Origin: Myxococcales bacterium
GTDB lineage: Bacteria; Myxococcota_A; Polyangia; Polyangiales; Polyangiaceae
Direction of reading: 5' to 3'
Assembly (NCBI GenBank): GCA_012514535.1
Contig: JAAZAA010000056.1
Coordinates: forward strand, 67,932-101,243
Length of the DNA stretch: 33,312 bases
Each line of letters opens with the position of its first letter. The stretch's first letter is position 1. The translations under genes and the position numbers were made by a program. Shown in pieces: positions 11,105 through 26,144 of the stretch. The notes under the pieces were generated by a model, which saw only the letters and a program-made list of their open reading frames with translations, did no database searches and was not told the DNA's origin.

Positions 11105-14100
11105 TTACGACGCATTCCAGCGCACCTCGGCGTACTCCGGGCTCAGGGCGAGGCGGACCAGATCCGCCACCGCCGCGCTCTGCCGGCAACGCACGCCCAG
11201 CTCGGCCAGGGTGCGCGGCGGAGCCAGCCGCTCCTCTTCGCAGGCAGCCACCACCGCCGTCGCCAGGTCCGCGCAGAGCACGAGCCCGGCGCGCCTCAAC
11301 ACCTGCCGCGCGACGGCGGTGACCTTCTCGTAGGCGAGCTCCGCGGGATCGGCGCAGAGCTGAGAGAGGCGACGCTGCTTGCGGGGCGGGAGCGCCTCCC
11401 AGAGGGCTGTGGCCAGGCGCGTCACCTCGCCGCTCGGGCGCTCCGTGCTGGGAGGGCCGAAGGCGGCGCGGAGCGCCGCGAGCAACGTGCGGACGTTTGC
11501 CGGGGGGGCGCCGAAGAGCAGCGCGAGCTCCGGCGACGTGGCCATGAGCATCGCACCGAAGTGGAACGCCAGCTCGGCGCTCGACTCCTCGATCTCGCCG
11601 GTCACGAGCAGCGCCGGAGGCACGAGCAGCGCGACGGAGAGGGTGATCGAGTTCGTCCCGCGCCGCTGGAAGACCGGGGTCCGTGAGGCGCCGAGGAGCC
11701 GCCCCGCGTCGGCGTAGAGTCGGGACAGGGGCGTCAGCGGTCCAGCCGCCACGCGCTCCAGCCCCGTGATCCCGTAGGTGCTCGGTTCCTGCTTGAAGAG
11801 GTTCGTGGCGTGCTCCCAGACCAGCGCCGTGGCCTCGGTGCCGGCGCACTGGAGCCCGCTGGCAAGGACGCGGCGGAGCAGATCCGGCTGCTCTCGCAGA
11901 CGACCGACCTCGGGCGCCACCTCGAAGGGGATCACGCCGAAGGTCCCCAAGACGTGGCGGATCGCGGCCGCCAGGGGGCCGTTGCGCTCGACCTCCGCCG
12001 CCGCGGCGAACTGGCGGAGCGCCCACTCGTCCCCCGGCTGGAGCAACGTGAGCCGCTCCGCCACGAGGAGACGATCCTGGGCGCGGGCGGGATCGGAGCC
12101 CAGGAGCTCGAGGAGCCCGCGCGCTGCTTCGGGGTCGCCGTGCTCGAACGCCGCCCGGAGCTCTTGCTCCCGAGGGCTGGCGGGGGGCGCGACCAGGAGC
12201 TTCGAGTTGGAGGAACGCCGTCCCCCGCTGGACGGCGGGGCGGAGGTGCTGATCGGGGAAGCGCCCGCCGCCTCCTCTCGCGCACGCGCCTGCTCCGCAC
12301 GCTCGACAAGGTCGCGTTCGGCAGCTTCGCGCTCGGCCCGCGCCTTCGCGGCACGCTCCGCGGCTTCACGCTCGGCGGCTTCACGCTCGGCTCGCGCGCT
12401 CGCTTCACGCTCCGCGGCTTCACGCTCCGCGCGCGCTCTCGCTTCACGCTCCGCGGCTTCGCGCTCGGCGGCTTCACGCTCGGCTCGCGCTCTCGCTTCA
12501 CGCTCCGCAGCTTCACGCTCCGCGCGCGCCTTCGCTTCACGCTCTGCGGCTTCACGCTCGGCTCGCGCTCTCGCTTCACGCTCCGCGGCTTCACGCTCGG
12601 CTCGCGCTCTCGCTTCACGCTCCGCAGCTTCACGCTCCGCGCGCGCTCTCGCCTCGCGCTCCGCGCGCGCCTGATTGTCTCGCTCGGCGCGCCCCCGCTC
12701 GGCAGCGATCTCCCGGAGCTCCGCGGCGGCCTCCACCTGACGCGGATCGTCGTGGGCCACCGCGGACAGATACGCCTGAGCGCGGTCCAGCTCGCCGAGG
12801 GAGCGGGCGACGCGACCCGCGCGGATGAGCACCTGCCCCTCCCCCCGGAGCCCGTGCAGATCGCTGCCCAGAGCCGCGTCCAGCAGCTGGAGCGCGCGCC
12901 GCGGATCGTCGTCCAGGCGCTCCGCCAGCCCGACCGCGACCAGCGCCCGGCTCCCCACCCGCTCGACGGCGCGATCAAGCTCCCGTAGGCCCGCCGCGCC
13001 GCCCTCCGTGACGTCCAGCGCCTCCGCCAACAAGAACGCCCGGAGCTCGATCTGGCGATGGTTGAGCCTCTCCTGCAGGTTGCGCAGCTGCGCCACCGTG
13101 CGCTGCGCCTGCTCGAGGTTTCCTGCGCCCCGCGCCAGGTACTCCAGGCGCCGCGCCAGCAGCTGCGCCTCCGCCGATTGCGGTGTGAGTTCGGCGGCCT
13201 GGACGGCGAGCTCGAGGGCCCGCTCCGCGTCTCCGCCGGCCTCGGCGGTGGTGGCGGCTTCGACGAGTAACGCCGCGGCCTGCGCGGGCTCGGCCCTCTC
13301 CTCCTTCGCCAGCTCGCTCAGCGCCCGAACCAACGCGCCGCGATCCCCGCTCTGACGCGCCAGCTTCACCCGCAGCTCCAGGAGCCGGCGGGAGGTCGAC
13401 TCGAACGTCACCTGCTCGAGGGTGCGGCGCGCACCGTCCACCTGCCCCGCCTCGAGGTGCGCCTCGGCGGCGAGCAACGTGAGCTCCCGCTGCTGCTCCG
13501 GATCGGTGGACACGGCTCGGGCCCGACCCCACAGCGTCGCCGCCCGGGAGGGGCTCCCGCTCCGGCGGTGCAGATCCGCCAGGACGTGCAGCAGATCGGG
13601 GTGCTCTCCTTCTTCACTCAGCAGCCGCTCGAGCTCCTGCCGCGCTTCCTCGACCCGACCGACGCTGCGCTCGAGGAGCGTCGCGCGCCGGAGGCGGAGC
13701 TGCAGCGCCTCCGCAGCGTCCGTGGCACACTCCGCCCGACGCAGCAGCAAGCGCGCCAGCTCCTCGTGATCACCGCGCCGCTCCGCGGCCCGCTCGAGCC
13801 CCTCCAGCGCGCCCCGGTTCACGGGATCCCGCGCGAGGAGCGCTCGATAACTGTCCTCGGCGTCGTCGAGCCTGCCGATCTCCTCCTGCCGCTGTGCGAG
13901 CGCCTCGTAGAGCTGGCGCTGCACCTCCGGGCTCAAGGGATCGAGCTCCACCTCGAGGAGGAGATCCAACGCGACGTCCACCGAGCTGTCCGCCGCCTGC
14001 GCCAGGATCTGCCGAGCGCGATCGTCGGCGGGGAGGATCCCCTCGACGGTGGCGAGCAGCTCGGGATCGCCCAGCTCTCGCGCGAACGTCTGGGCAAGTC

Positions 14101-17100
14101 CGACGAGGGCGGTGTCGTGGGGGCTCTCCACCGCCGCGCGGATCAGGAGGCGCCCGTGGGCTTCTTTCTCGCCGAGCCCGTGCGCGATCGTCGCGGCGAG
14201 CTCCGCGAGCGCGCGACCACAGGACGCGAGGCGGTTGCCCGCCCGCTCCACACACCACGCCACGAAGGCGCGAGCGGGAGCGCCCAACGCCGCCAGCCGC
14301 TCGGCGTAAGGCCGGAGCTCCGCGAACTGCTCGATGTCGCTGTCACACTCCGCCGCGCGTTGCAGCGCTCGCAGCGCGAGCTGGTCGTCTCCGAACAGCT
14401 CGAGGGCCGCGATGGCCGCGCGGACGGCGAAGGCGCTCCCTTCCATGCCGCCCGCCTTGGGCAACAACACCCCGAGCGCCCGCTCGAAGCGGAGGTGGAC
14501 CACCTCCGCGTCGTCCGGACAGACCTCGAGCAGCTGCCGCATCGCCTCCGCCAGCGTCCCCAGGGTCGGCGCGTCGGGGCGCACCGCGACCGCCCGCAAG
14601 AGCACGTCGATGCGCTGTCTGCGCCCGGACTCGCTCGTGTCCGCGAGGGCCGCGGCGCGAGCCAACCAGAGGACCCGCGCCCCGTCGTCGGGGGTGCGGC
14701 TCGCCACGCGCTCGAGGGCGCCCACGACCTGGTCGGAGTCTCCGGCCCGATCCGCCAGGCGCGCCATCAGCACGAAGGCGACTCCCTCCCCGGGGACCGC
14801 CTCGAACGCCGCCACCGCGTGCTGGAGCGCGACGTCGTGATGACCTCGGCGCTCGAGCTGCCGCGCCGCCCGGTAATGGACCGCGCGCTCGCCATAACGG
14901 CCGAGGGTGGCCTGGGCCAAGGTGCGGTACAGGGCGACGAGCTCGTCGACGTCCTGGCTGGTCGCCGCGCTCTCGGCGATCGTCAACACGTCCGCGTTGG
15001 CGGGGTGCTTCGTGAGCGCTTCCCGAGCGAGCCGAAAGGCGTCCGCGGGGCGCTGCGCCTCGAGGGCGAACCGCGCGGCGAGCCCCAGGAGGCGCCCCGC
15101 GGTCGCGGGCGTCGCCGCGTCCTCCGCCACGCGCTCCAGCTCCCGAGCGGCCATCTCCGGTCCGCCGAAGGTGTGGAGGTCCCATGCGAGCTCCTCCACC
15201 GCCTCGGCGCCGCCCCACTCCAGACGCCGTACCCACGCGAGCACCGCTCCGTGAACGTCCCCCGCGAGATCCCAGCGGGCCGCCCCGAGCTCACGCACCG
15301 CTCGGAGCCAACGCGCGCAAGACGCCCCTGCACCCGTCCCTCCCCGCACCCCCGACGCGGGCTGCAGCACCTCGACCTGCGCCTCGAGCACGGCGAGCAG
15401 CGCGTCGCCTTCGTCCGCGGGAGGGAGCGCCTCGAGGCGCTCGGCGATCACCGTAGCCGAGGCGCCCGCGGCGAGGGCGCGGCCCAGGGCGCGCGCGGCC
15501 GCCGCCGTCTCTCCGGTCGCTGCCCGCAGCCGCGCCAGCTCGACGAGCGCCCCGGCGCGAACCTGCGGTGACGCGGTCACCAGCCAACGCTCCAGCACCT
15601 GCGCCTCGAGGTCCGGCACCTGGCAGGTCCGGGCCACCTCGAGCACCGCCTCCCGCACCGCCTCGACGCGCGGACCGAGCACGTCGAGCACGCGCCGGGC
15701 CACCTCCGGAGCCCGCTCCGGGGCGAGCCGAGCGAGGGCTCCGAGCGCGCTCGCCGCAGGACCGACGAGCCGCGCGAGGGGGATGGGCTGAGACAGGAGC
15801 CACGAGAGAGCGTCCGCCAGCCGCTCGCCGTCTCCCGCCTCCGCCGCGCGCCGGAGGAGCTCCTTCGCGACCTCGGGATCCCCGGGGCGCTGCGCGAGCT
15901 GGCGCTGGGTCCAGGTGAGCGCGAGGCGCAGGGCTCCGCGTCGCTCGGAGGAGTCGGCCAGGACCTGGCACGTGCTCCCCCGCGCCAGCACGACGGCGAG
16001 GGAGCGCTCCAGCAGGACCGCCGCCGCGGAATCCGGATCGCGCTGAGCCACCAGCGCCTGCGCGGCGACGCCCCGCTGCCAGGACGGATCCGCGTCGACC
16101 GCCATCTCCGCGGCGAGCCGCGCCTCCGCGAGCTGCCCCGCGTCGAGGAGCAGCTCCGCCGCGACGCTCGCCACGACCGCGCGGACGCGCCCCTGGGCGT
16201 GGCCAGCGACGTGCCAGAGGGCGAGCGCCCGCCCCTCGTTCATGCCAGCCCGGAGCGCCGTCACCGCACCCAGGCAGGCGGCCTCGAGGGACGGCCCGGG
16301 TCGGGGCGCGAGCAGCGGTTGCAAGACCTCCTGGGCCGCAAACCAATCGCCCCGGGCCCCTTGGAGTCGTGCCAGCTCCAGGCGCACCCCCTCCTGGGAC
16401 GCGTCCCCGAGGTGGACGAGCTGCTCGCGCAGGGCCGCGATCCGGCGCAGGATCTCTTCCTCACCGAGCGCGAGCTCCGGCGCCAGCTGCGCGCGCGCTT
16501 CGGGGCGTGGGTACAGCTCGAGCAACCGCGCGCGCAGGCCCTGGACCGTGCTCGCGCCCCACGCGAACACCGCGGCGTCGAGCGCCGCGAGGAGCCAGTC
16601 CACGAGCACGGGCTCTCCCGCCGCCAGGTGCACGAACAGCGACTCGACGTCGCGCGGCGGCTCCGCGCGCGACCCCGCCAACACCTCCGCGAGCCGCTCC
16701 GCGTCGAACGCCGCGTCGAGCTCGGCGTCGAGGGCCGCCCCGAGGGCCGCGGACCAGTCCTGCTCGGCGATGAGGCGCCCGAAGCGCCGCTGATGGATCG
16801 CCGCGCGACGCGCCGCGGAGCCCGAGCGCGCTTGCTCTCGCAACACTTCTTCGGCGGCCCCTGGTCGCCCCCGCTCCTCGAGGGCCAGGGCCAGCTGCTC
16901 CGCCGCGGCCGGATCCGACGGGCACGCCTCGAAGGCGCGCACGCTGTTCTCGAAGGCGCCGGTCACGTCGCCGGCGGCGGCCCGCCGCGCCGCCGCCTCC
17001 GTGAAGGCGCGCGCCGCGCGCTCGCCACGGATCGCTCCCCAGCCCCGCAGAGTCCCGAGGAGCTCGGCAGGGAGCGGATCGTGAGTCGCCGCCTGGAGGG

Positions 17101-17551
17101 CGGATTCGAAGGCCTGCGCCGCCTCCTCCGCCTTCCCCGCGCGGGCCAGGAGCACCCCGATACGCGTCCGCACCGCGCCCCGATCTTCGGGACTCGCCCG
17201 CCCCTCGACGCGCTGGAGGATCGCCGCGGCCCGTGCGGGCTCACCGACGCTCGCCCACCAGGACGACAGGTCGCTCGCCAAGGCGCCGTCGCCTCCGAGC
17301 GCGAAGGCGCGCTCGCCCAGACGGAGCACCTCCCGCGCTTCGATCCCCCGCGCCGCCAACGCGCGAGCCAACACGCCGCTGAGCCGCGCCTCCGCCTCCT
17401 CGTCGCCCGCCTCACGAGCGTCCCGCAGCCGGGCCTGCACGGAGGCCAGCTCCGCAGTGGGTCCGTCGAAGCGAGGCGTGGGCCGTGGGTCGGGCGGTGG
17501 AGGCGCGGACCGTCCGCTGCGCGCCGCGGCCCCGGTTTGTGACGTGTTCAT
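11105..17551 (-). CDS. Giant TPR-repeat protein with charged single-helix segment
   Basis: A 2148-residue protein with no signal peptide or membrane segment, so probably cytoplasmic. Residues of about 35-1600 are degenerate tetratricopeptide-type helical repeats rich in Ala, Leu, Arg and Glu (for example the blocks near GRLDDAEDSYRALLARDP). Residues of about 1627-1754 are made of a 13-residue repeat (AEREAAEREARAR and variants), which predicts a long single alpha-helix with i/i+4 Glu-Arg pairs. After a Ser/Pro linker comes a globular C-terminal domain (about 1790-2148) that I do not recognise. TPR arrays bind protein partners, so a scaffold role is likely, but nothing here names the partner. 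It diverges from the PEGA-domain gene. The ATG at 17551 has no strong ribosome binding site. Confidence 0.82.
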   Translation of the reverse strand: MNTSQTGAAARSGRSAPPPPDPRPTPRFDGPTAELASVQARLRDAREAGDEEAEARLSGVLARALAARGIEAREVLRLGERAFALGGDGALASDLSSWWASVGEPARAAAILQRVEGRASPEDRGAVRTRIGVLLARAGKAEEAAQAFESALQAATHDPLPAELLGTLRGWGAIRGERAARAFTEAAARRAAAGDVTGAFENSVRAFEACPSDPAAAEQLALALEERGRPGAAEEVLREQARSGSAARRAAIHQRRFGRLIAEQDWSAALGAALDAELDAAFDAERLAEVLAGSRAEPPRDVESLFVHLAAGEPVLVDWLLAALDAAVFAWGASTVQGLRARLLELYPRPEARAQLAPELALGEEEILRRIAALREQLVHLGDASQEGVRLELARLQGARGDWFAAQEVLQPLLAPRPGPSLEAACLGAVTALRAGMNEGRALALWHVAGHAQGRVRAVVASVAAELLLDAGQLAEARLAAEMAVDADPSWQRGVAAQALVAQRDPDSAAAVLLERSLAVVLARGSTCQVLADSSERRGALRLALTWTQRQLAQRPGDPEVAKELLRRAAEAGDGERLADALSWLLSQPIPLARLVGPAASALGALARLAPERAPEVARRVLDVLGPRVEAVREAVLEVARTCQVPDLEAQVLERWLVTASPQVRAGALVELARLRAATGETAAAARALGRALAAGASATVIAERLEALPPADEGDALLAVLEAQVEVLQPASGVRGGTGAGASCARWLRAVRELGAARWDLAGDVHGAVLAWVRRLEWGGAEAVEELAWDLHTFGGPEMAARELERVAEDAATPATAGRLLGLAARFALEAQRPADAFRLAREALTKHPANADVLTIAESAATSQDVDELVALYRTLAQATLGRYGERAVHYRAARQLERRGHHDVALQHAVAAFEAVPGEGVAFVLMARLADRAGDSDQVVGALERVASRTPDDGARVLWLARAAALADTSESGRRQRIDVLLRAVAVRPDAPTLGTLAEAMRQLLEVCPDDAEVVHLRFERALGVLLPKAGGMEGSAFAVRAAIAALELFGDDQLALRALQRAAECDSDIEQFAELRPYAERLAALGAPARAFVAWCVERAGNRLASCGRALAELAATIAHGLGEKEAHGRLLIRAAVESPHDTALVGLAQTFARELGDPELLATVEGILPADDRARQILAQAADSSVDVALDLLLEVELDPLSPEVQRQLYEALAQRQEEIGRLDDAEDSYRALLARDPVNRGALEGLERAAERRGDHEELARLLLRRAECATDAAEALQLRLRRATLLERSVGRVEEARQELERLLSEEGEHPDLLHVLADLHRRSGSPSRAATLWGRARAVSTDPEQQRELTLLAAEAHLEAGQVDGARRTLEQVTFESTSRRLLELRVKLARQSGDRGALVRALSELAKEERAEPAQAAALLVEAATTAEAGGDAERALELAVQAAELTPQSAEAQLLARRLEYLARGAGNLEQAQRTVAQLRNLQERLNHRQIELRAFLLAEALDVTEGGAAGLRELDRAVERVGSRALVAVGLAERLDDDPRRALQLLDAALGSDLHGLRGEGQVLIRAGRVARSLGELDRAQAYLSAVAHDDPRQVEAAAELREIAAERGRAERDNQARAEREARARAEREAAEREARARAEREAAEREARARAEREAAEREAKARAEREAAEREARARAEREAAEREAAEREARARAEREAAEREASARAEREAAEREAAERAAKARAEREAAERDLVERAEQARAREEAAGASPISTSAPPSSGGRRSSNSKLLVAPPASPREQELRAAFEHGDPEAARGLLELLGSDPARAQDRLLVAERLTLLQPGDEWALRQFAAAAEVERNGPLAAAIRHVLGTFGVIPFEVAPEVGRLREQPDLLRRVLASGLQCAGTEATALVWEHATNLFKQEPSTYGITGLERVAAGPLTPLSRLYADAGRLLGASRTPVFQRRGTNSITLSVALLVPPALLVTGEIEESSAELAFHFGAMLMATSPELALLFGAPPANVRTLLAALRAAFGPPSTERPSGEVTRLATALWEALPPRKQRRLSQLCADPAELAYEKVTAVARQVLRRAGLVLCADLATAVVAACEEERLAPPRTLAELGVRCRQSAAVADLVRLALSPEYAEVRWNAS
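12288..12668. repeat. 39-bp imperfect coding tandem repeat
   Basis: About nine copies of a 39-bp unit built from CGCTTCACGCTCCGC-like and CTTCACGCTCGGCTCGC-like halves (plus-strand orientation). Some copies carry an extra 15-bp half unit. The unit encodes 13 residues on the minus strand and keeps the TPR-gene frame throughout. Copy-number change would lengthen or shorten the predicted helix without a frameshift. Confidence 0.85.
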
Positions 17552-18979: not shown

Positions 18980-20305
18980 TCAGGAGAAGCGCTTGCCGAT
19001 CGCGTCCACGACCTGGCCGTAATCGGCCGGCAGCATCACGGCGGGGTTGCGGAGGTTACTCGTCACCCCGTCGATGAGCCCCTCGTGGTAGCGCACCTTG
19101 AACTCCGTGAACTTGAGGCCGTTCGCGGTGGAGATGCACACGACGCGATCGTCGGACTTGATCACGTCCCGCGCTCGCAGCTTCTCGAGGACGGCCAGCC
19201 CTACGGCGGTGTGCGGACAGGTGTACATCCCCGTCGCGTCGGCGCGCGCGGCGGCGTCCGCCAGCTCCTGCTCGCTCGCCTGCTCCACGATGCCGTCCAT
19301 GGCCTCCAGCGCCTTGATGGCGCGCGGTGCGCTGACGGGGTTGCCGATCTGGATGGCCGTGGCCTGCGTCGGCTGCGCCGTGATGGGCTCCACTTCCTTC
19401 TTGCCGGCGCTCCAGGCCCGATACAGGGGGTTGGCGTTCTCGGCCTGGGCCACCACCAGCCGCGGCAGGCGCTCGACGACGCCGAGCTGCTGCATCATGC
19501 GGAAGCCCATGTACAGGGCGGAGGCGTTCCCGAGGTTGCCGCTCGGGAGGATGACCCAGTCGGGGCTCTCCCACCCGAACTGCTGCACGATCTCGATGCC
19601 GACCGTCTTCTGCCCCTCGAGGCGTAGCGGGTTCATCGAGTTGGCGAGGTACACGATGCCCTCGGCGGCCAGGCGCTTGACGATCGCCATGCAGCCGTCG
19701 AAGTCCGTGTCGAGCCCGAGCACCAGCGCACCGTGCGCGAGGGGCTGCACGAGCTGGGCCGTGGAGATTTTGCCCCGGGGCAGCAGCACGACGACCGGCA
19801 GGCCAGCCGCCGCACCGTAGGCAGCCAGGGCCGCGCTCGTGTCCCCCGTGGAAGCGCAGGCGATCGCCTTGAGGCTCTTGCCCTGCATCACGGCGCGCTT
19901 CACGACGCTGACCAGGACGGTCATGCCGAGATCCTTGAAGGAGCCGCTGTGGCTGTTTCCACACAGCTTCACCCACAGGTCGGGCAGACCCAGCTGGCGT
20001 CCGTAGCGCTCGGCCCAGAACAGGTTGGTGCCGCCCTCGTACATCGAGACGATCTCGTCGTCCGCGACCTCGGGCATCACCCACTCGCGCTTGCCCCAGA
20101 CACCAGAGCCGTAGGGCCACTGGTTGAGCCGGTACCGCTCGTCGAACAAGCTCTTCCAAGCCGCTCCACTGCGGGTCGCCAGCGCCTCCATGTCGTGGAC
20201 CACTTCGAGCAATCCGCCGCAGGAGGGGCACGTATAAATGGCCTCGGTCACCGGCCAGGAGCCGGAACAGCCAGCAAAACACCGGAACTCAGCGGAGTAA
20301 GGCAC
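18980..20305 (-). CDS. thrC: Threonine synthase (PLP-dependent, zinc-ribbon N-terminus)
   Basis: A 441-residue enzyme of the fold-type II PLP family, which converts O-phosphohomoserine to threonine. The PLP Lys124 is in [27 protein letters not shown] binds the phosphate, and [15 protein letters not shown] is the second conserved loop. Four Cys (9, 13, 26, 29) form an N-terminal zinc ribbon, as in many threonine synthases of this branch. The start codon is GTG without a Shine-Dalgarno; a TATAGT box ends six bases before it. No other threonine genes are adjacent. A related PLP enzyme such as cysteate synthase cannot be fully excluded. Confidence 0.9.
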
Positions 20306-20473: not shown

Positions 20474-21628
20474 GTGGCCATCTACGCCGCGGTGGACCCC
20501 TGGCTGCTCGTCTTCACTCCCTCGACGGGGGATCCCGCGCGGATCGTGGCCGGCCTCCCCCTCGCGCTGCGGCTCGCCCTCGACGCCGGAGCGGCGGGGA
20601 TGGCGGGCATCGTGCTCCCGGAGGACCCCTCCGAGCGGGCATCCCTGGAGCGCCTGCTCGATGACGCTCGGCTTCGGCTCCCGCTCCTGGAGCGGGCTCC
20701 CGCGGGCGCCTCGACCATCGCCGTGCCCCCCAACTGGCTCGTCCACCGCCAGCTCCTCCGCCAGGTGGTCACCGGAGGGCCCTTGCTGGAAGGGGGGGCC
20801 CCCGCGCGGCTCGAGCCCGCCGGTCCCCAGCACGTGGATCTGAGCCGGCGCCCGCTCCGCCCCGACGTGCCGTTCTCCTTCGAGCCGATCGAGGTCACGG
20901 ACGCGGCCAGCGCCCGCCGCGCCGAGGGCCACGCGTTCCGCGCGCTCCGCAAGCCCCAGGACGGCTGGACCGCGCGCTGGCTCAACCGCTACCTCTCCCT
21001 CCCGCTGTCGCGCCTGCTCGTGCGGACCCCCCTCACTCCGAACCAGGTCTCCGTCGGCATCCTGGCCATCGGCTTGTGCGGCGCCTACCTGGCGTCTCGA
21101 GGCGACTACGCCTCGATGGCCTGGGGCGCCTTCCTCTTCCAGATGCAGAGCGTACTCGACGGCTGTGATGGAGAGATGAGTCGCATCACCCACCGCGGCT
21201 CGCTGACCGGAGAGTGGCTCGACACGGTGGGCGACGATCTCACGAACTACTCCTTCTACTTCGGAGCCGCCTGGGGGCTCTTTCAAGCCACCGGGTGGAC
21301 GCCGTACCTCGCGGCGGGGCTGGTCGTCGTCAGCTGCGGGTTCATCGCGAGCGGCCTGGAGTACCGCTACCTCGTGCGCATCGGCTCGGGGGATCTGCTC
21401 AAGTACCCCCTGAGCGCCGGTGAGGGGCAGTCGAAGCTCATGGCGGCGATCCAGCCGCTGTTCAAGCGCGACACCTTCGTGTTCCTCACCTTCCTCGCCG
21501 CGCTCGCGGGCTGGCTCGGCCCCATGCTGATCGTGTTCGCCGCGGGCGCCGTCGGCGTCTTGGTGAACGTCCTCAAGACCGAGCTCCGCCTGGCGCGCGA
21601 ACAGCGGGGTGGGACGCCGGTGACATGA
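20474..21628 (+). CDS. CDP-alcohol phosphatidyltransferase with degenerate N-terminal domain
   Basis: A 384-residue protein from the GTG at 20474, which has AGGAG nine bases upstream. The C-terminal half (from about residue 165) is a CDP-alcohol phosphotransferase with the full signature: D229-x2-D232-G-x2-S-R237-x8-G246-x3-D250-x3-D254 (Ser in place of the usual Ala). Several hydrophobic helices span about 193-365. It should transfer a phosphoalcohol from a CDP-alcohol at the inner membrane. The first 160 residues, ending in ALRKPQDGWTARWLNRYLSLPLSRLL, resemble the layout of the bifunctional inositol-phosphate cytidylyltransferase/di-inositol-phosphate synthase group. I see no nucleotidyltransferase G-x-G-T-R-L motif, so that half may be inactive. 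The stop overlaps the next start (ATGA). Confidence 0.88.
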   Translation: MAIYAAVDPWLLVFTPSTGDPARIVAGLPLALRLALDAGAAGMAGIVLPEDPSERASLERLLDDARLRLPLLERAPAGASTIAVPPNWLVHRQLLRQVVTGGPLLEGGAPARLEPAGPQHVDLSRRPLRPDVPFSFEPIEVTDAASARRAEGHAFRALRKPQDGWTARWLNRYLSLPLSRLLVRTPLTPNQVSVGILAIGLCGAYLASRGDYASMAWGAFLFQMQSVLDGCDGEMSRITHRGSLTGEWLDTVGDDLTNYSFYFGAAWGLFQATGWTPYLAAGLVVVSCGFIASGLEYRYLVRIGSGDLLKYPLSAGEGQSKLMAAIQPLFKRDTFVFLTFLAALAGWLGPMLIVFAAGAVGVLVNVLKTELRLAREQRGGTPVT

Positions 21629-23175
21629 TCGAAGGGGCGCGCTCCCCCGGGCGGGCCTCTCCCCGAAAGCCGTCCCCCCGGCGCGGTGAAACGACGTTCG
21701 CGCGAGCCCTGCTCACCGTCGCCCTCGGCGCGCTCCCCCTGAGCCTGACGCGCACCGCCTGCGCCCAGCTCGGCCCCGACGGCAGCCGCATCCAGACGAA
21801 CGACTACGCCATCGATCTGTTCCAGGGCCCCGTGCTCGCCAGTACGCGGGTGATGGGCCTCGGCGGCGCCTACGTCGCCGTGGGTGACTTCATCGAGGGC
21901 AACACCCAGAACGCCGCCGCCCCCGCGGTGCGCTCGGCCCACGCCCTCGACTACGTCGACTGGGATCTCGGCTTCGGCATCACCTTCCCCTCGAGCCTCG
22001 GCGGCTCCGACTTCTTCAACACGGGCAAGGGCCGCACGACGATCCCCACCACGGCGGAGCAGAGCTTCGTCTCCCTCGAGCTCGCCGGGAACCTCCAGTT
22101 CGGCCCCTGGGGCATCGGCGCCGCGGTCAACACGCAGCAGTACGCCCTCACCCGGGCGGAGGCGAGCGGGGATCGGCTCCAATCGCAGATCGTCAACCTG
22201 AACGTGCAGCTCGCCCGCTCCTTCCTCGACGGACAGCTCTTCGTCGGCCTCGGCGTGCGCACGATCGGGCTGTCGGTGCTGAACACGAACGCCGTCACGC
22301 AGGCCGAGCGCACCCTCTTCGAGAGCGTCGGCGGCAACGTGGAGGTGGGCACCCTGTGGCGACCGAACGGCGCTGCGTTCCGCATCGGCGCCGCCTTCCG
22401 CGGTCCCGTCGAGAGCCAGGTCGATACCGAGACGACGACGGCGCAGGTGCTCTTCCCCGGTACGCCCGAGGAGCTCTACTTGCCGAACTCCGTCCGCCTC
22501 CCCTGGCAGATTTCGATGGGCTTCGCCTACCAGTTCGGGCGGTTGTTCAACCCGCGCTGGTACGATCCGCACTCGCTGATCGAGCGGACCGATCGCTACG
22601 TGCGCTGGCGTCAGTCCGATCGGGAGCGACGCCGAGAGCGCCTCCACGCCAACGCGGAGCGCGCCGGAGGCGACGTGCCCGCAGCGAAGGCCGCCATCGA
22701 CGCCCACCTCGACCTCGAGCGGGCCATCGACGAGCGGAGCCTGGAGGAGGCCGCGAACGTGACCCGCCAGCGGCTCCGGGAGCGGTATCGAGATCTCGGC
22801 AGGTTCTACGTCCTGGTGTCGACGGCCCTGCACATCGACGGCCCGGTGGGCGACGCCGTCGGGATCGAGTCCTTCCTGGAGCGAGAGGTGAACCGGAGCG
22901 GCCAGCGCACGACCTTTTCCCCGCGCCTGGGGATCGAGAGCGAGATCATCCCAAACTGGGTAGTGCTGCGAGGGGGGACCTACCTGGAACCCACTCGCTT
23001 CGAGAGCAACCCCGCCGGGGCGCGCATCCACGGGACCGGGGGCGCCGACATCAAGCTCGGTCAGTGGGACGTCTTCGGCATCTGGCCCGACCACTACACT
23101 TGGCGCTTGCGGGGGGCGGTGGACGCGGCGCGCGACTATTTCGGCTGGGGCCTCGCGCTGGGGGGCTGGTATTGA
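21625..23175 (+). CDS. Outer-membrane beta-barrel protein (FadL/PorV-like)
   Basis: A 516-residue protein overlapping the previous gene by 4 bp. A long basic N-region precedes a hydrophobic signal (about 26-47, cleavage near TACA/Q). ASTRVMGLGGAYVAVGD (about 72-88) is the N-terminal pattern of FadL/PorV-type barrels. Alternating amphipathic strands follow and the chain ends in GGWY, a terminal aromatic as in many barrels. Residues of about 313-395 form a highly charged, probably helical insertion (YVRWRQSDRERRRERL and onward) that is unusual for a barrel and may be a periplasmic or surface arm. The substrate is unknown. Coupling to a CDP-alcohol transferase and two lipoproteins suggests a shared envelope task. 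Confidence 0.75.
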   Translation: MIEGARSPGRASPRKPSPRRGETTFARALLTVALGALPLSLTRTACAQLGPDGSRIQTNDYAIDLFQGPVLASTRVMGLGGAYVAVGDFIEGNTQNAAAPAVRSAHALDYVDWDLGFGITFPSSLGGSDFFNTGKGRTTIPTTAEQSFVSLELAGNLQFGPWGIGAAVNTQQYALTRAEASGDRLQSQIVNLNVQLARSFLDGQLFVGLGVRTIGLSVLNTNAVTQAERTLFESVGGNVEVGTLWRPNGAAFRIGAAFRGPVESQVDTETTTAQVLFPGTPEELYLPNSVRLPWQISMGFAYQFGRLFNPRWYDPHSLIERTDRYVRWRQSDRERRRERLHANAERAGGDVPAAKAAIDAHLDLERAIDERSLEEAANVTRQRLRERYRDLGRFYVLVSTALHIDGPVGDAVGIESFLEREVNRSGQRTTFSPRLGIESEIIPNWVVLRGGTYLEPTRFESNPAGARIHGTGGADIKLGQWDVFGIWPDHYTWRLRGAVDAARDYFGWGLALGGWY

Positions 23176-24065
23176 TGCAACGAACCATGCGCTCCCTCGC
23201 CGTTCTCTCTCTCCTCCTCGCGTGCTCGGCCTGCGAGGATCCACCCGAACCGCCTCAGCCCACCGAACCCTGGCCTGCGCCGCCCGCGTCCGCGCCCGCC
23301 ACCACGGCCACCGCCACCGGCGCGCCCGCTCCCTCGGAGGCTCCGCCTGCGTCGGAAACACCACGGCCCCTGCGCCCCTATCGCATCCAGGAGGGGTCGC
23401 TGATGCAGGTCACCCTGCCCGCCAAGGAGGCCAAACCCACAGGCACCTTCCGCATCGTGCGCGGCCAGCTGGAGCTCGATCTGCTCGAGCTCCAGCGCAG
23501 CCGCGGCACCGTCGAGGTCGATCTCGGCTCCGTGTTGATGGAAGGCGACAACGAGCGGCAGGAGCGCGAGCGCACGAGCCGGGCCCGCGATTGGCTCAAC
23601 CTCGGCGCGTCTCGGCCCGATGCGGAGGTGGAACGGAGCCGCTTCGCGCGCTTCGTGGTGACCAGCGTCGACGAGCTGTCCCACGAGGCGCCCCACATCG
23701 GTCGAAGGCTGCCTCCCCTGCCCCAGGACTCCACCACCAAGACCGAGAAGGGCGCGGAGGGCTCGGCGGGAGAACGTCGGCGCGTCACGGCGAAGGTCAC
23801 GGGCGAGCTCGAGGTGAACGGCTTCCGCGTCCAACGCTCCGCCGCCGTCCAGCTGGACTTCCATTACGACGTCGCGGCCACCCCCGGGCTCCCCCCGACC
23901 CGGATCCAGCTCAGCTCCCGGAGCCCCGTCTCGATCCCCTTGGCGGATCACGACATCCAGCCGCGGGACACCCATGGCCGTCTCGTCTCCGCGGATCTCG
24001 AGCTGGTGGGCCGCCTCGTGGGCCGGAACGCTCGGGTCGCGTTCCAGCTCGTCGCCGTGCCCTGA
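23175..24065 (+). CDS. YceI-like lipoprotein
   Basis: A 296-residue lipoprotein whose ATG overlaps the preceding stop (TGATG). The signal peptide ends at LLLAC (Cys17); a second Cys is at 20. A Pro/Ala/Thr linker runs to about residue 70. The rest follows the YceI beta-barrel pattern: GTFRIVRGQLELDL, then RGTVEVDLGSV, an R-rich loop with RDWLNLG, RFARFVVTSV, and VTGELEVNGF. YceI proteins bind long isoprenoid or amide lipids inside the barrel. Here a 35-residue polar insertion (about 180-205) replaces part of a loop. It may handle a lipid linked to the CDP-alcohol transferase two genes upstream; that is inference. Confidence 0.72.
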   Translation: MQRTMRSLAVLSLLLACSACEDPPEPPQPTEPWPAPPASAPATTATATGAPAPSEAPPASETPRPLRPYRIQEGSLMQVTLPAKEAKPTGTFRIVRGQLELDLLELQRSRGTVEVDLGSVLMEGDNERQERERTSRARDWLNLGASRPDAEVERSRFARFVVTSVDELSHEAPHIGRRLPPLPQDSTTKTEKGAEGSAGERRRVTAKVTGELEVNGFRVQRSAAVQLDFHYDVAATPGLPPTRIQLSSRSPVSIPLADHDIQPRDTHGRLVSADLELVGRLVGRNARVAFQLVAVP

Positions 24066-24095
24066 GCCGCGGCCTGGGTTATCGTGCGCGGGCTG

Positions 24096-24542
24096 ATGCA
24101 AACGGTGTCCCTCCCTTCCGTCCTCGCGAGCGCCTTGCTCGGGCTCCTGGCCCTCCACTGCGGTCCTCCGGTGGCGGAGCGTCCGGCCCCCACTCCCGTG
24201 TACGTCGCGGAGCTCTCGCTCCCTCCGACGAACATCATCGAGGAGTCCCTGCGTGCCCCCGCGCCTCCGGCCGACCAGGGTGCGGCAGCGAAGGACGAGA
24301 GCGCCCCCGACACCGACCACTCGAGCTCCGACCACTCAGGCCCCGACCAGGCGGACTCCGACCAGGCGGACTCCGAGCCCCGCGACACCCGGGGCGCTGC
24401 CGCCCCGGACGCCGACGAGCCGCGCTCTGCCCAACCGCCCGCTCCTGAGCCGCGCGTCGACGAGCCGCCCGCCGGGAAGCGGAAGGAAGCGGCTCCGGGC
24501 ACGGCGCCCACCGCGCCCACCGCGCCGCCGAAGAGTCCCTGA
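24096..24542 (+). CDS. Small acidic, Pro/Asp-rich putative lipoprotein
   Basis: A 148-residue protein of unknown function (ATG 24096; a GTG at 24084 is possible). The N-terminal hydrophobic segment ends in LLALHC (Cys near 22), a lipobox with an unusual His before the Cys. The rest is low-complexity and acidic, rich in Asp, Ser, Pro and Ala, with a 4-copy 5-residue repeat. High third-position GC throughout supports coding. It follows the YceI-like gene by 30 bp and is probably the last gene of the operon. Confidence 0.65.
   Translation: MQTVSLPSVLASALLGLLALHCGPPVAERPAPTPVYVAELSLPPTNIIEESLRAPAPPADQGAAAKDESAPDTDHSSSDHSGPDQADSDQADSEPRDTRGAAAPDADEPRSAQPPAPEPRVDEPPAGKRKEAAPGTAPTAPTAPPKSP
24315..24374. 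repeat. 15-bp tandem repeat, four copies
   Basis: Units at 24315, 24330, 24345 and 24360. The last two are identical (GACCAGGCGGACTCC); the first two share GACCACTC. They encode DHSSS, DHSGP, DQADS and DQADS in the small acidic lipoprotein. Confidence 0.9.
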
Positions 24543-24560
24543 GCCCGCGCCCGCTCAGGG
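24537..24560. terminator. Bidirectional hairpin containing both convergent stop codons
   Basis: CCCTGAGC (24537-24544) pairs perfectly with GCTCAGGG (24553-24560) across an 8-base loop. The left arm carries the TGA of the acidic lipoprotein and the right arm the complement of the L,D-transpeptidase TGA. Only 12 bp separate the two genes. Confidence 0.55.
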
Positions 24561-26144
24561 GCGGATGTTGACGAGGGTCCCGCGGGAATCGAAGGCCGAG
24601 TGCCAGTTCTGCGGCACGGGCGGATCCGTCCACGAGAACAGCCAGCGCGCGTCGTGCGGCGCCAGGTTGATGCACCCGTGGCTGCGGGGGTTCCCGAACA
24701 CGTCGTGCCAGAAGGCCGCGTGGAAGGCGTACCCCTGGTGAAAGTACTGGACGTAGGGGATGTCTCGCAGATCGAACTCGTCGCCCGGCTCGTCTCCGCT
24801 CATCGTGTCGGTGACGTGCTTGGTGTGAATCACGAACTGCCCACGCACCGTAGCGCGGGTGGTCTTGGGATCGCCGAGGAGATCTCGTCCGGTCGTCACG
24901 AGGGTCGCGTACACGGGCTGGGTTCCCCGATAGGCGACGAGGGTCTGGTTCAAGATGGAGACGTCGATCCAGCTCCGCTCCCCCTTCGCCCAGTAGGGCA
25001 TGGTCTCGAGGGGATCGATGCGCACGAGCTGACTGTCCCGCAGCCAGTGCCCGCTCTGGGTCTCGAGGAAGGTGACTCCCCCGACCTGCTCCTGGCGCCC
25101 GGTCAACGAGAACGCCTCGCGGAAGTGGATGGGGCGCTCCGGGGCCAAGGTGCCCTCCTTCGGGTGCCCGCGGAAGAGCTGAGCCCGGGAGCTGCGCACG
25201 AACACCACGGGGAGCTCCATTCCCTCCCCGAGGGGCACGCCGTGGAACTCACTCGCCATCACCGGGTCCAGCCGATCCAGCGGGATGAGCATCAGATCCG
25301 TGCTGATCCCCCAGCGTCGCCCCTCCGCCTCGAACAGGTCGATCAGAGCGAATGCGCCGTTGCTCAGCCCGAAGCCGCCGAGGGGCCCCGAGGGCAGCAC
25401 GGGATACCCGAAGGGCCGCGGGACGCGCTCTCCTCCCGCGATCTGCTGGGGCGGCCCTCCAACGGCCTCCAGGGTCCACAGGGGATCGATGCCGCGCCGC
25501 AGGTGGGAAGCCAGATCCTTCTCGCTCTGCTCCTGCTCGGCGCGGGTGGGGAGGCGCGCGTAGAGGGGCGGTGGGGCTCCGCGGGCCTTGCCGTAGGTGT
25601 ACGGCATCGGGGAGCTGCGGTCGGGCCCCGCCGCCGCCAGGGCGACCGCCGGATGCTCGATATCGAGCGTCGCCGTGCGCCCGACGCAGACGTACCCCTC
25701 GGGGGCCACGCGATACCACCCTTCGGGGCACCCCTCGGTGCTCTTCGGGACCGGCGCCCGGTTCACCACCGCCCCCGTCCGCAGGTAGCCGAGGCGGCGG
25801 GATCTCCGGTTGGGCTCCTCGTAGACGACGGTCTGCTTGCCCAAGGCCGCCAGGCGGGCGTCGGGGGACAGGCGGTCCGGGGAGGGCGGCTCGGAAGCGA
25901 CCTCCCCGTCCGGCGCCGCGAGCTCCTCGCTGGTCTCCGTCACGTCGGGGGCGGTGCCGACCACCTCGCCGACGGCCGCGAGCCGCGTCTCCTCCCCCTC
26001 CGGCTCGACGGGGGCGGGGGCGTCGATGACCGCCGCGGTGACCGACGACGACAGCGGCTGTCCCCGCAGATGGGTACGCGCCAGCACGACACCAGCACCC
26101 AGGGAACCGATGAACAAGCCGGTGATGACCGCTCGCCAGGCCAT
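24555..26144 (-). CDS. L,D-transpeptidase (YkuD family) with SH3-like domain
   Basis: A 529-residue membrane-anchored protein: hydrophobic segment at about 4-23, an acidic/Pro-rich linker to about 95, then an SH3b-like domain (about 104-157, TVVYEEPNRRSRRLGYL and GWYRVAPEGYVCVGR). The C-terminal YkuD domain (about 395-529) has HAAFWHDVFGNPRSHGCINL with catalytic Cys491 and His475, His480 and His489 nearby. Such enzymes make 3-3 cross-links in peptidoglycan or attach proteins to it, in the periplasm. The middle region (about 200-390) is larger than in the minimal enzymes and may be a substrate or partner module. It lies 64 bp downstream of rlmE on the same strand and may have its own promoter (TTTCCC-17-TAGAGC). 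Confidence 0.92.
   Translation of the reverse strand: MAWRAVITGLFIGSLGAGVVLARTHLRGQPLSSSVTAAVIDAPAPVEPEGEETRLAAVGEVVGTAPDVTETSEELAAPDGEVASEPPSPDRLSPDARLAALGKQTVVYEEPNRRSRRLGYLRTGAVVNRAPVPKSTEGCPEGWYRVAPEGYVCVGRTATLDIEHPAVALAAAGPDRSSPMPYTYGKARGAPPPLYARLPTRAEQEQSEKDLASHLRRGIDPLWTLEAVGGPPQQIAGGERVPRPFGYPVLPSGPLGGFGLSNGAFALIDLFEAEGRRWGISTDLMLIPLDRLDPVMASEFHGVPLGEGMELPVVFVRSSRAQLFRGHPKEGTLAPERPIHFREAFSLTGRQEQVGGVTFLETQSGHWLRDSQLVRIDPLETMPYWAKGERSWIDVSILNQTLVAYRGTQPVYATLVTTGRDLLGDPKTTRATVRGQFVIHTKHVTDTMSGDEPGDEFDLRDIPYVQYFHQGYAFHAAFWHDVFGNPRSHGCINLAPHDARWLFSWTDPPVPQNWHSAFDSRGTLVNIRP

Follow-up and report, generated by a model that had tools for sequence, protein, structure and literature searches.

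Peptides modified by multinuclear non-heme iron-dependent oxidative enzymes (MNIOs) form a fast-growing class of ribosomally synthesized and post-translationally modified peptides (RiPPs), mostly described in Pseudomonadota together with DoxX-type partners. YceI proteins are common and poorly understood. The closest described systems are HvfABC, associated with the EGKCG oxazolin captophorin, and the bufferins; the product chemistry of HvfA/BufA-type peptides and lipidated MNIO products have been reported (PMC13097082, PMC12636315), and uncharacterized MNIO RiPP-lipoproteins with a CxxxxC motif are known as “Cluster X” (preprint PMC12636315) and as the CxxxxC family (PMC12452194). Here, we analyzed a 33,312-nucleotide stretch of a Myxococcales bacterium (GTDB family Polyangiaceae; assembly GCA_012514535.1, contig JAAZAA010000056.1, positions 67,932–101,243), referred to as the window, in which genes for a CDP-alcohol phosphotransferase (CDP-AP), an outer-membrane barrel, and a YceI-like lipoprotein are followed by a fourth gene encoding a small lipoprotein. 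Comparison with relatives indicates that the window probably retains only the first half of an envelope locus conserved in a Polyangiaceae-like myxobacterial family. The missing part includes an MNIO RiPP module, with which YceI is associated far more widely than with CDP-AP. MNIO RiPP-lipoproteins are already known, and the link between MNIO and YceI is the new element: we found no paper connecting the two, and the main texts of PMC12636315 and PMC12452194 do not mention YceI.

The original prediction, made from the window alone, described four open reading frames with junctions of 4, 1, and 30 bp as an envelope operon that could produce and transport an unusual phospholipid or polar head group. 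The reading frames and junctions are borne out by the coordinates and the G+C content, the third-position G+C being 0.86–0.92 across all four genes. The features of the locus and the basis for each assignment are as follows:

18980..20305, minus strand: threonine synthase, flanking gene (TIGR00260, 224 bits)
20474..21628, plus strand: CDP-AP with AF2299 architecture (PF01066, motif, Foldseek)
21625..23175, plus strand: outer-membrane barrel with FadL-type fold and helical-hairpin insert (AlphaFold, Foldseek, orthologue alignment)
23175..24065, plus strand: YceI-like lipoprotein (PF04264; lipobox visible in the sequence)
24096..24542, plus strand: fourth gene, small acidic low-complexity lipoprotein (sequence)
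24543..24554, no strand: junction where relatives have MNIO, DUF2063, kinase, and TPR genes and the window has none (comparison with loci L172–L174 and L129/L130/L132)
24555..26144, minus strand: YkuD L,D-transpeptidase, flanking gene where synteny resumes (PF03734, 69 bits)

The CDP-AP gene starts with GTG, preceded by AGGAG, and overlaps the barrel gene by 4 bp (ATGA); barrel and YceI genes overlap by 1 bp (TGATG), and the fourth gene starts with ATG 30 bp 3′ of the YceI gene.

The comparison set consisted of the 12 relatives that share the CDP-AP clade of the window (G and L numbers denote genomes and loci). The full locus in relatives has the order CDP-AP, FadL-type barrel, YceI lipoprotein, CGxGxC lipoprotein, MNIO, DUF2063 protein, protein kinase, and TPR protein, and is bounded by threonine synthase, which is the divergent neighbor of CDP-AP in most of these genomes, and, on contigs long enough to include it, by the L,D-transpeptidase. 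The barrel gene comes after CDP-AP in 10 of the 12 relatives, and YceI is next in all those with sequence available. An RCC1-type gene on the opposite strand lies between CDP-AP and barrel in G014 and G054, the barrel is missing at the locus in G022 and G096, YceI is inverted in the otherwise intact locus of G061 (L133:6556-7533), and the locus of G077 is split across two contigs. Barrel and YceI genes are joined by ATGA-type overlaps in L093, L126, L128, and L130, and the gaps between CDP-AP and barrel range from −11 to +4 in L128, L130, L131, and L095. The order CDP-AP, barrel, YceI is not due to chance because both the order and the close junctions recur in relatives on a supported clade. 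Hence, the first three genes of the proposed envelope operon are conserved and closely packed, but the fourth is not, its place in relatives being taken by the CGxGxC lipoprotein precursor.

In 11 of the 12 clade relatives, the next genes encode a small lipoprotein, an MNIO, and a DUF2063/HvfC-like partner, and this longer conserved locus rules out a self-contained four-gene system. The precursor lipoprotein, encoded between YceI and MNIO, ends in CGAGTCG or a close variant (CGxGxCG/A); similar CGAGTCG-type precursors are found at most other YceI loci too. The MNIO of L093 matches PF05114 with 299.6 bits, its partner carries DUF2063 and NGO1945_C domains, and the two genes overlap by 14 to 23 bp in several loci. 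The relatives thus have the genes of an MNIO RiPP system (an exported cysteine-containing precursor, a PF05114 protein, and a DUF2063 partner) next to each other. The nearest NCBIfam models are HvfB and BufB for the MNIO and HvfC for the partner, all scoring under their cutoffs; the MNIO of L093 is not assigned to either equivalog, with 272.8 bits (cutoff 360) for HvfB and 269.4 bits (cutoff 310) for BufB.

The loci of the relatives resemble those of HvfABC and the bufferins in having precursor, MNIO, and DUF2063 partner in the same order, and their core cysteines share the C-x4-C spacing of EGKCGEGKCG, some precursors carrying EGGCG repeats. They differ in their precursor, a lipoprotein whose long tether usually carries one or two CGxGxC tips, and in having YceI as a standing partner; the window has none of the three defining genes. 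No DoxX gene was seen in the ordered loci, although no profile search for DoxX was made. By their description, the CxxxxC RiPP-lipoproteins are similar to the precursors of the relatives, which likewise combine a lipoprotein signal, as in Cluster X, with a C-x4-C motif beside an MNIO. In G062, a gene for a large secreted protein is inserted between precursor and MNIO (L127, about 7.4–9.8 kb). Other MNIO loci of the family (L144, L147, L152, L158, and L161) have a different Cys-rich lipoprotein nearby (e.g., CCKGKNECKGKSGCK), which suggests a second type of lipidated MNIO substrate in the family.

The outer neighbors in the window are those of its relatives, but the fourth gene is directly followed by the L,D-transpeptidase gene, and the locus lacks MNIO, DUF2063, kinase, and TPR genes. 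No PF05114 match was found anywhere in the window genome, which is 98.8% complete, whereas the domain is present in 90 of the 108 genomes of the family. An assembly gap is an unlikely cause of the missing MNIO gene, because the contig extends without a break through the L,D-transpeptidase gene to rrmJ, as it does in G096; the order in L173 is TPR, YkuD, rrmJ. The RiPP half is also absent from G008, where YceI runs directly into the TPR gene. Since its sister G077 has the RiPP half, loss is the simpler history for G008 too, and G059 may be a third case. The window amounts to a natural deletion that parts lipid-type genes from peptide-type genes.

As to the fourth gene, we lean toward the simplest history, that of a decayed precursor, on the basis of its position. 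The slot, orientation, lipobox, and Pro/Ala-rich tail are as in the precursors, the size is similar, and no new gene is required. Alternatively, an unrelated lipoprotein gene arrived once the RiPP half had been deleted, an explanation that we regard as a serious contender, although somewhat short of an even chance. It accounts for the acidic Asp/Ser-rich middle of the protein, which contrasts with the Ala/Lys-rich tethers of the precursors, and for the lack of a core cysteine, the sole cysteine being Cys22 of the lipobox. The fourth gene has no recognizable homologue in the loci of relatives examined, the protein has no Pfam match, and a profile hidden Markov model (HMM) built from 26 precursor N termini scored it at −1.4 bits, a value exceeded by 148 of 195 background lipoproteins and 196 of 1000 shuffled sequences. 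With this negative N-terminal HMM result and no CGxGxC tail in the window reading frames inspected, the fourth gene was rejected as a demonstrable precursor homologue.

The YceI lipoprotein of the window matches PF04264 with 24.9 bits (gathering cutoff 23.7), and 13 of 14 YceI orthologues match this family. They differ from YceI proteins in general in being lipidated and MNIO-linked, with a Pro/Ala tether, insertions, and weak scores. A YceI profile search was positive in 75 of the 108 family genomes. Judged within 1.5 kb flanks, a CGxGxC lipoprotein and/or an MNIO accompanies YceI at 27 of the family's 30 best YceI loci, mostly without CDP-AP; the other three are those of the window, G008, and G059. 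The link is kept in rearranged loci (order MNIO, DUF2063, YceI in L290, L291, and L296) and is also found outside the family, in L293. In a phylum-wide sample, 17 genomes gave a strong YceI match, 3 of them outside the family. Weaker YceI paralogues in the same genomes lack an MNIO (L297–L301). A lipidated version of the MNIO system is thus widespread in one myxobacterial family, traveling with a YceI lipoprotein even where the gene order has changed, and this fixed genetic link to a membrane-tethered, probably copper-binding peptide gives YceI a testable function. L293 comes from a genome in a different family and has a tandem pair of CGxGxC lipoprotein genes ahead of a single MNIO gene.

The CDP-AP of the window scores 24.4 bits against the Pfam family CDP-OH_P_transf (PF01066; cutoff 22) and has the class I signature (Dx2DGx2ARx8Gx3Dx3D in a six-helix membrane domain) as D229xxD232G233xxSR237...G246xxxD250xxxD254. 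The signature is kept in the 21 orthologues aligned, with replacement of Ala by Ser (S236) as the one change. The AlphaFold model has a pLDDT of 91, with the membrane domain at high confidence, and Foldseek matched it to Archaeoglobus AF2299 along the whole chain (391 columns, TMt 0.72). The top sequence matches in the PDB, AF2299 (96 bits) and IPCT-DIPPS (79 bits), cover the membrane domain only. Like these Archaeoglobus fulgidus proteins, the window CDP-AP has a cytidylyltransferase-like N-domain fused to a CDP-AP domain with an intact motif, but it is only about 20% identical to them. The G-rich loop and lysine of nucleotidyltransferases are absent from its N-domain and are not conserved among orthologues, so this domain looks catalytically dead.

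The protein scores far under the cutoff of every NCBIfam equivalog, including bifunctional IPCT-DIPPS (NF041135, 72 bits, cutoff 580) and phosphatidylinositol phosphate (PIP) synthase (PIPSynth, 37.4 bits, cutoff 170); on these scores and the missing N-domain motif, a canonical PIP or DIPP synthase was rejected. In RsPIPS, R153 and R191 are the two arginines that bind the acceptor phosphate (PMC4634129). R298 and K331–R332 of the window CDP-AP are mere candidates for equivalent residues, the alignments being too weak to fix positions, and a search for the inositol phosphate arginines by alignment to the genome's own PIP-synthase-like protein was dropped for the same reason. The window genome also carries separate pgsA, pssA, and PIP-synthase-like genes, so that CDP-AP need not make a housekeeping phospholipid. 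The literature on phosphatidylinositol in myxobacteria yielded nothing of use here. Since donors or products of AF2299/DIPPS-type enzymes can be water-soluble (PMC4634129), the product of the CDP-AP, which resembles these enzymes, need not be a lipid.

The AlphaFold model of the barrel (pLDDT 79) has a helical hairpin at about residues 320–391, in agreement with the charged helical insert anticipated from the sequence. Foldseek identified a FadL-type fold (FadL: E 2.2e-10, probability 1.00), with FadL and CymD as top matches, followed by barrels of Bacteroidota BAM and type 9 secretion complexes; TM-scores were modest (0.40–0.44 by query length). In contrast to the FadL/PorV/OmpP1 superfamily, the window barrel lacks a Pfam match and has this 70-residue hairpin insert.

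The folds of CDP-AP, barrel, and YceI all suit lipid handling, and the lipid theme of the original prediction to this extent survives, but the set is not self-contained, given that it continues into the MNIO module in nearly all clade relatives. In its full form, the idea places all four gene products in one pathway for an unusual phospholipid or polar head group: CDP-AP would synthesize the lipid, YceI would ferry it across the periplasm, and the barrel would let it cross or leave the outer membrane. The close packing kept in relatives and the survival of the trio in two lineages that lost the RiPP half, those of the window and G008, are consistent with this, as are the AMP-binding ligases next to sister-clade CDP-APs in some genomes. 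However, YceI occurs with MNIO and without CDP-AP in most YceI-bearing genomes of the family, the loci of G022 and G096 contain CDP-AP and YceI without a barrel, the product of CDP-AP may be soluble, and the fourth gene is not conserved. On balance, we consider a lipid system of this kind unlikely. Because the trio has stayed intact, with its genes still coupled, despite loss of the RiPP half, CDP-AP, barrel, and YceI probably have a role independent of the modified peptide; by analogy with related folds, a role in lipid handling is plausible and the most natural guess.

CDP-AP orthologues (E ≤ 1e-60) were found in 21 of the 108 family genomes, including that of the window; a scan of named genomes returned almost only myxobacterial metagenome assemblies, many labeled Polyangiaceae. 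In a tree of these 21 proteins, 13 form one supported clade (97/97), with the window nested inside. Gene order is kept within this clade, but in sister clades CDP-AP has no YceI next to it, its frequent neighbors there being a WPSD-motif lipoprotein, an Exo_endo_phos protein, or an AMP-binding ligase, and YceI–MNIO occurs without CDP-AP in many genera; the conservation of gene order on which the original prediction hinged is accordingly mixed. Alternatively, the YceI–MNIO module may have landed by chance beside a CDP-AP–barrel pair, the RiPP module being the only functionally linked part. The other neighbors of CDP-AP elsewhere fit such an accident, as do the equally syntenic thrC, PEGA, and YkuD flanking genes and G053, which has barrel, YceI, lipoprotein, and MNIO but no CDP-AP. 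Against it, overlaps between barrel and YceI and gaps as short as those between CDP-AP and barrel are unusual for mere neighbors, and the trio was retained after the RiPP half was lost. This explanation, too, we think is improbable.

The reading that we favor, and consider probable, is that the complete locus makes a membrane-tethered, cysteine-ended, enzyme-modified peptide and that the window has lost this half. By analogy with characterized systems, MNIO and its DUF2063/HvfC-like partner would act in the cytosol and oxidize the cysteines near the C-terminal end of the lipoprotein, probably yielding 5-thiooxazoles; the Sec and lipoprotein pathways would then anchor the modified lipoprotein in a membrane, where a flexible Ala/Pro/Lys tether would hold out the probably copper-binding tip. 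YceI might serve as the periplasmic partner of the modified peptide, likely via a bound isoprenoid or quinone-like lipid. In the one clade where they lie upstream, CDP-AP would join a CMP-activated alcohol to a soluble acceptor, and the barrel would pass a hydrophobic molecule through the outer membrane. These steps build on how the genes are arranged and conserved, on which of them were lost, and on the motifs and folds predicted for their products, with modification, export, and copper binding carried over from characterized families (PMC13097082, PMC12636315, PMC12452194). Several points weigh against this reading, among them the N-terminal profile score of the fourth protein. The role of YceI is a guess from its family, and CDP-AP and barrel may be together by neighborhood rather than function: each is found elsewhere without the other, and no barrel is present in L094 and L129. 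A more speculative extension, which we consider unlikely, is that the YceI lipoproteins of myxobacteria serve specifically as partners of a lipid-anchored MNIO RiPP. A lipid or quinone bound by YceI would keep the thiooxazole tip reduced, loaded, or placed, and in one clade CDP-AP and barrel would supply or move that lipid; some lineages, that of the window among them, would have retained the lipid-related genes when the peptide-related ones were lost.

A few genes around these loci were observed in addition. The WPSD-motif lipoprotein (about 660 residues, no Pfam match) is encoded divergently from CDP-AP in many genomes of both CDP-AP clades (e.g., L093:2795-4771, L097:3221-5236, and other CDP-AP loci) and may be an older partner of CDP-AP. 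A secreted Exo_endo_phos protein adjoins a sister-clade CDP-AP in L097 (6415-7419); this fold includes sphingomyelinases and inositol-polyphosphate phosphatases. Within the window, positions 11105-17551 (minus strand) encode a 2148-residue protein with a long stretch of AEREA-type repeats toward its C-terminal part, and fragments of this protein are syntenic upstream of thrC in relatives.

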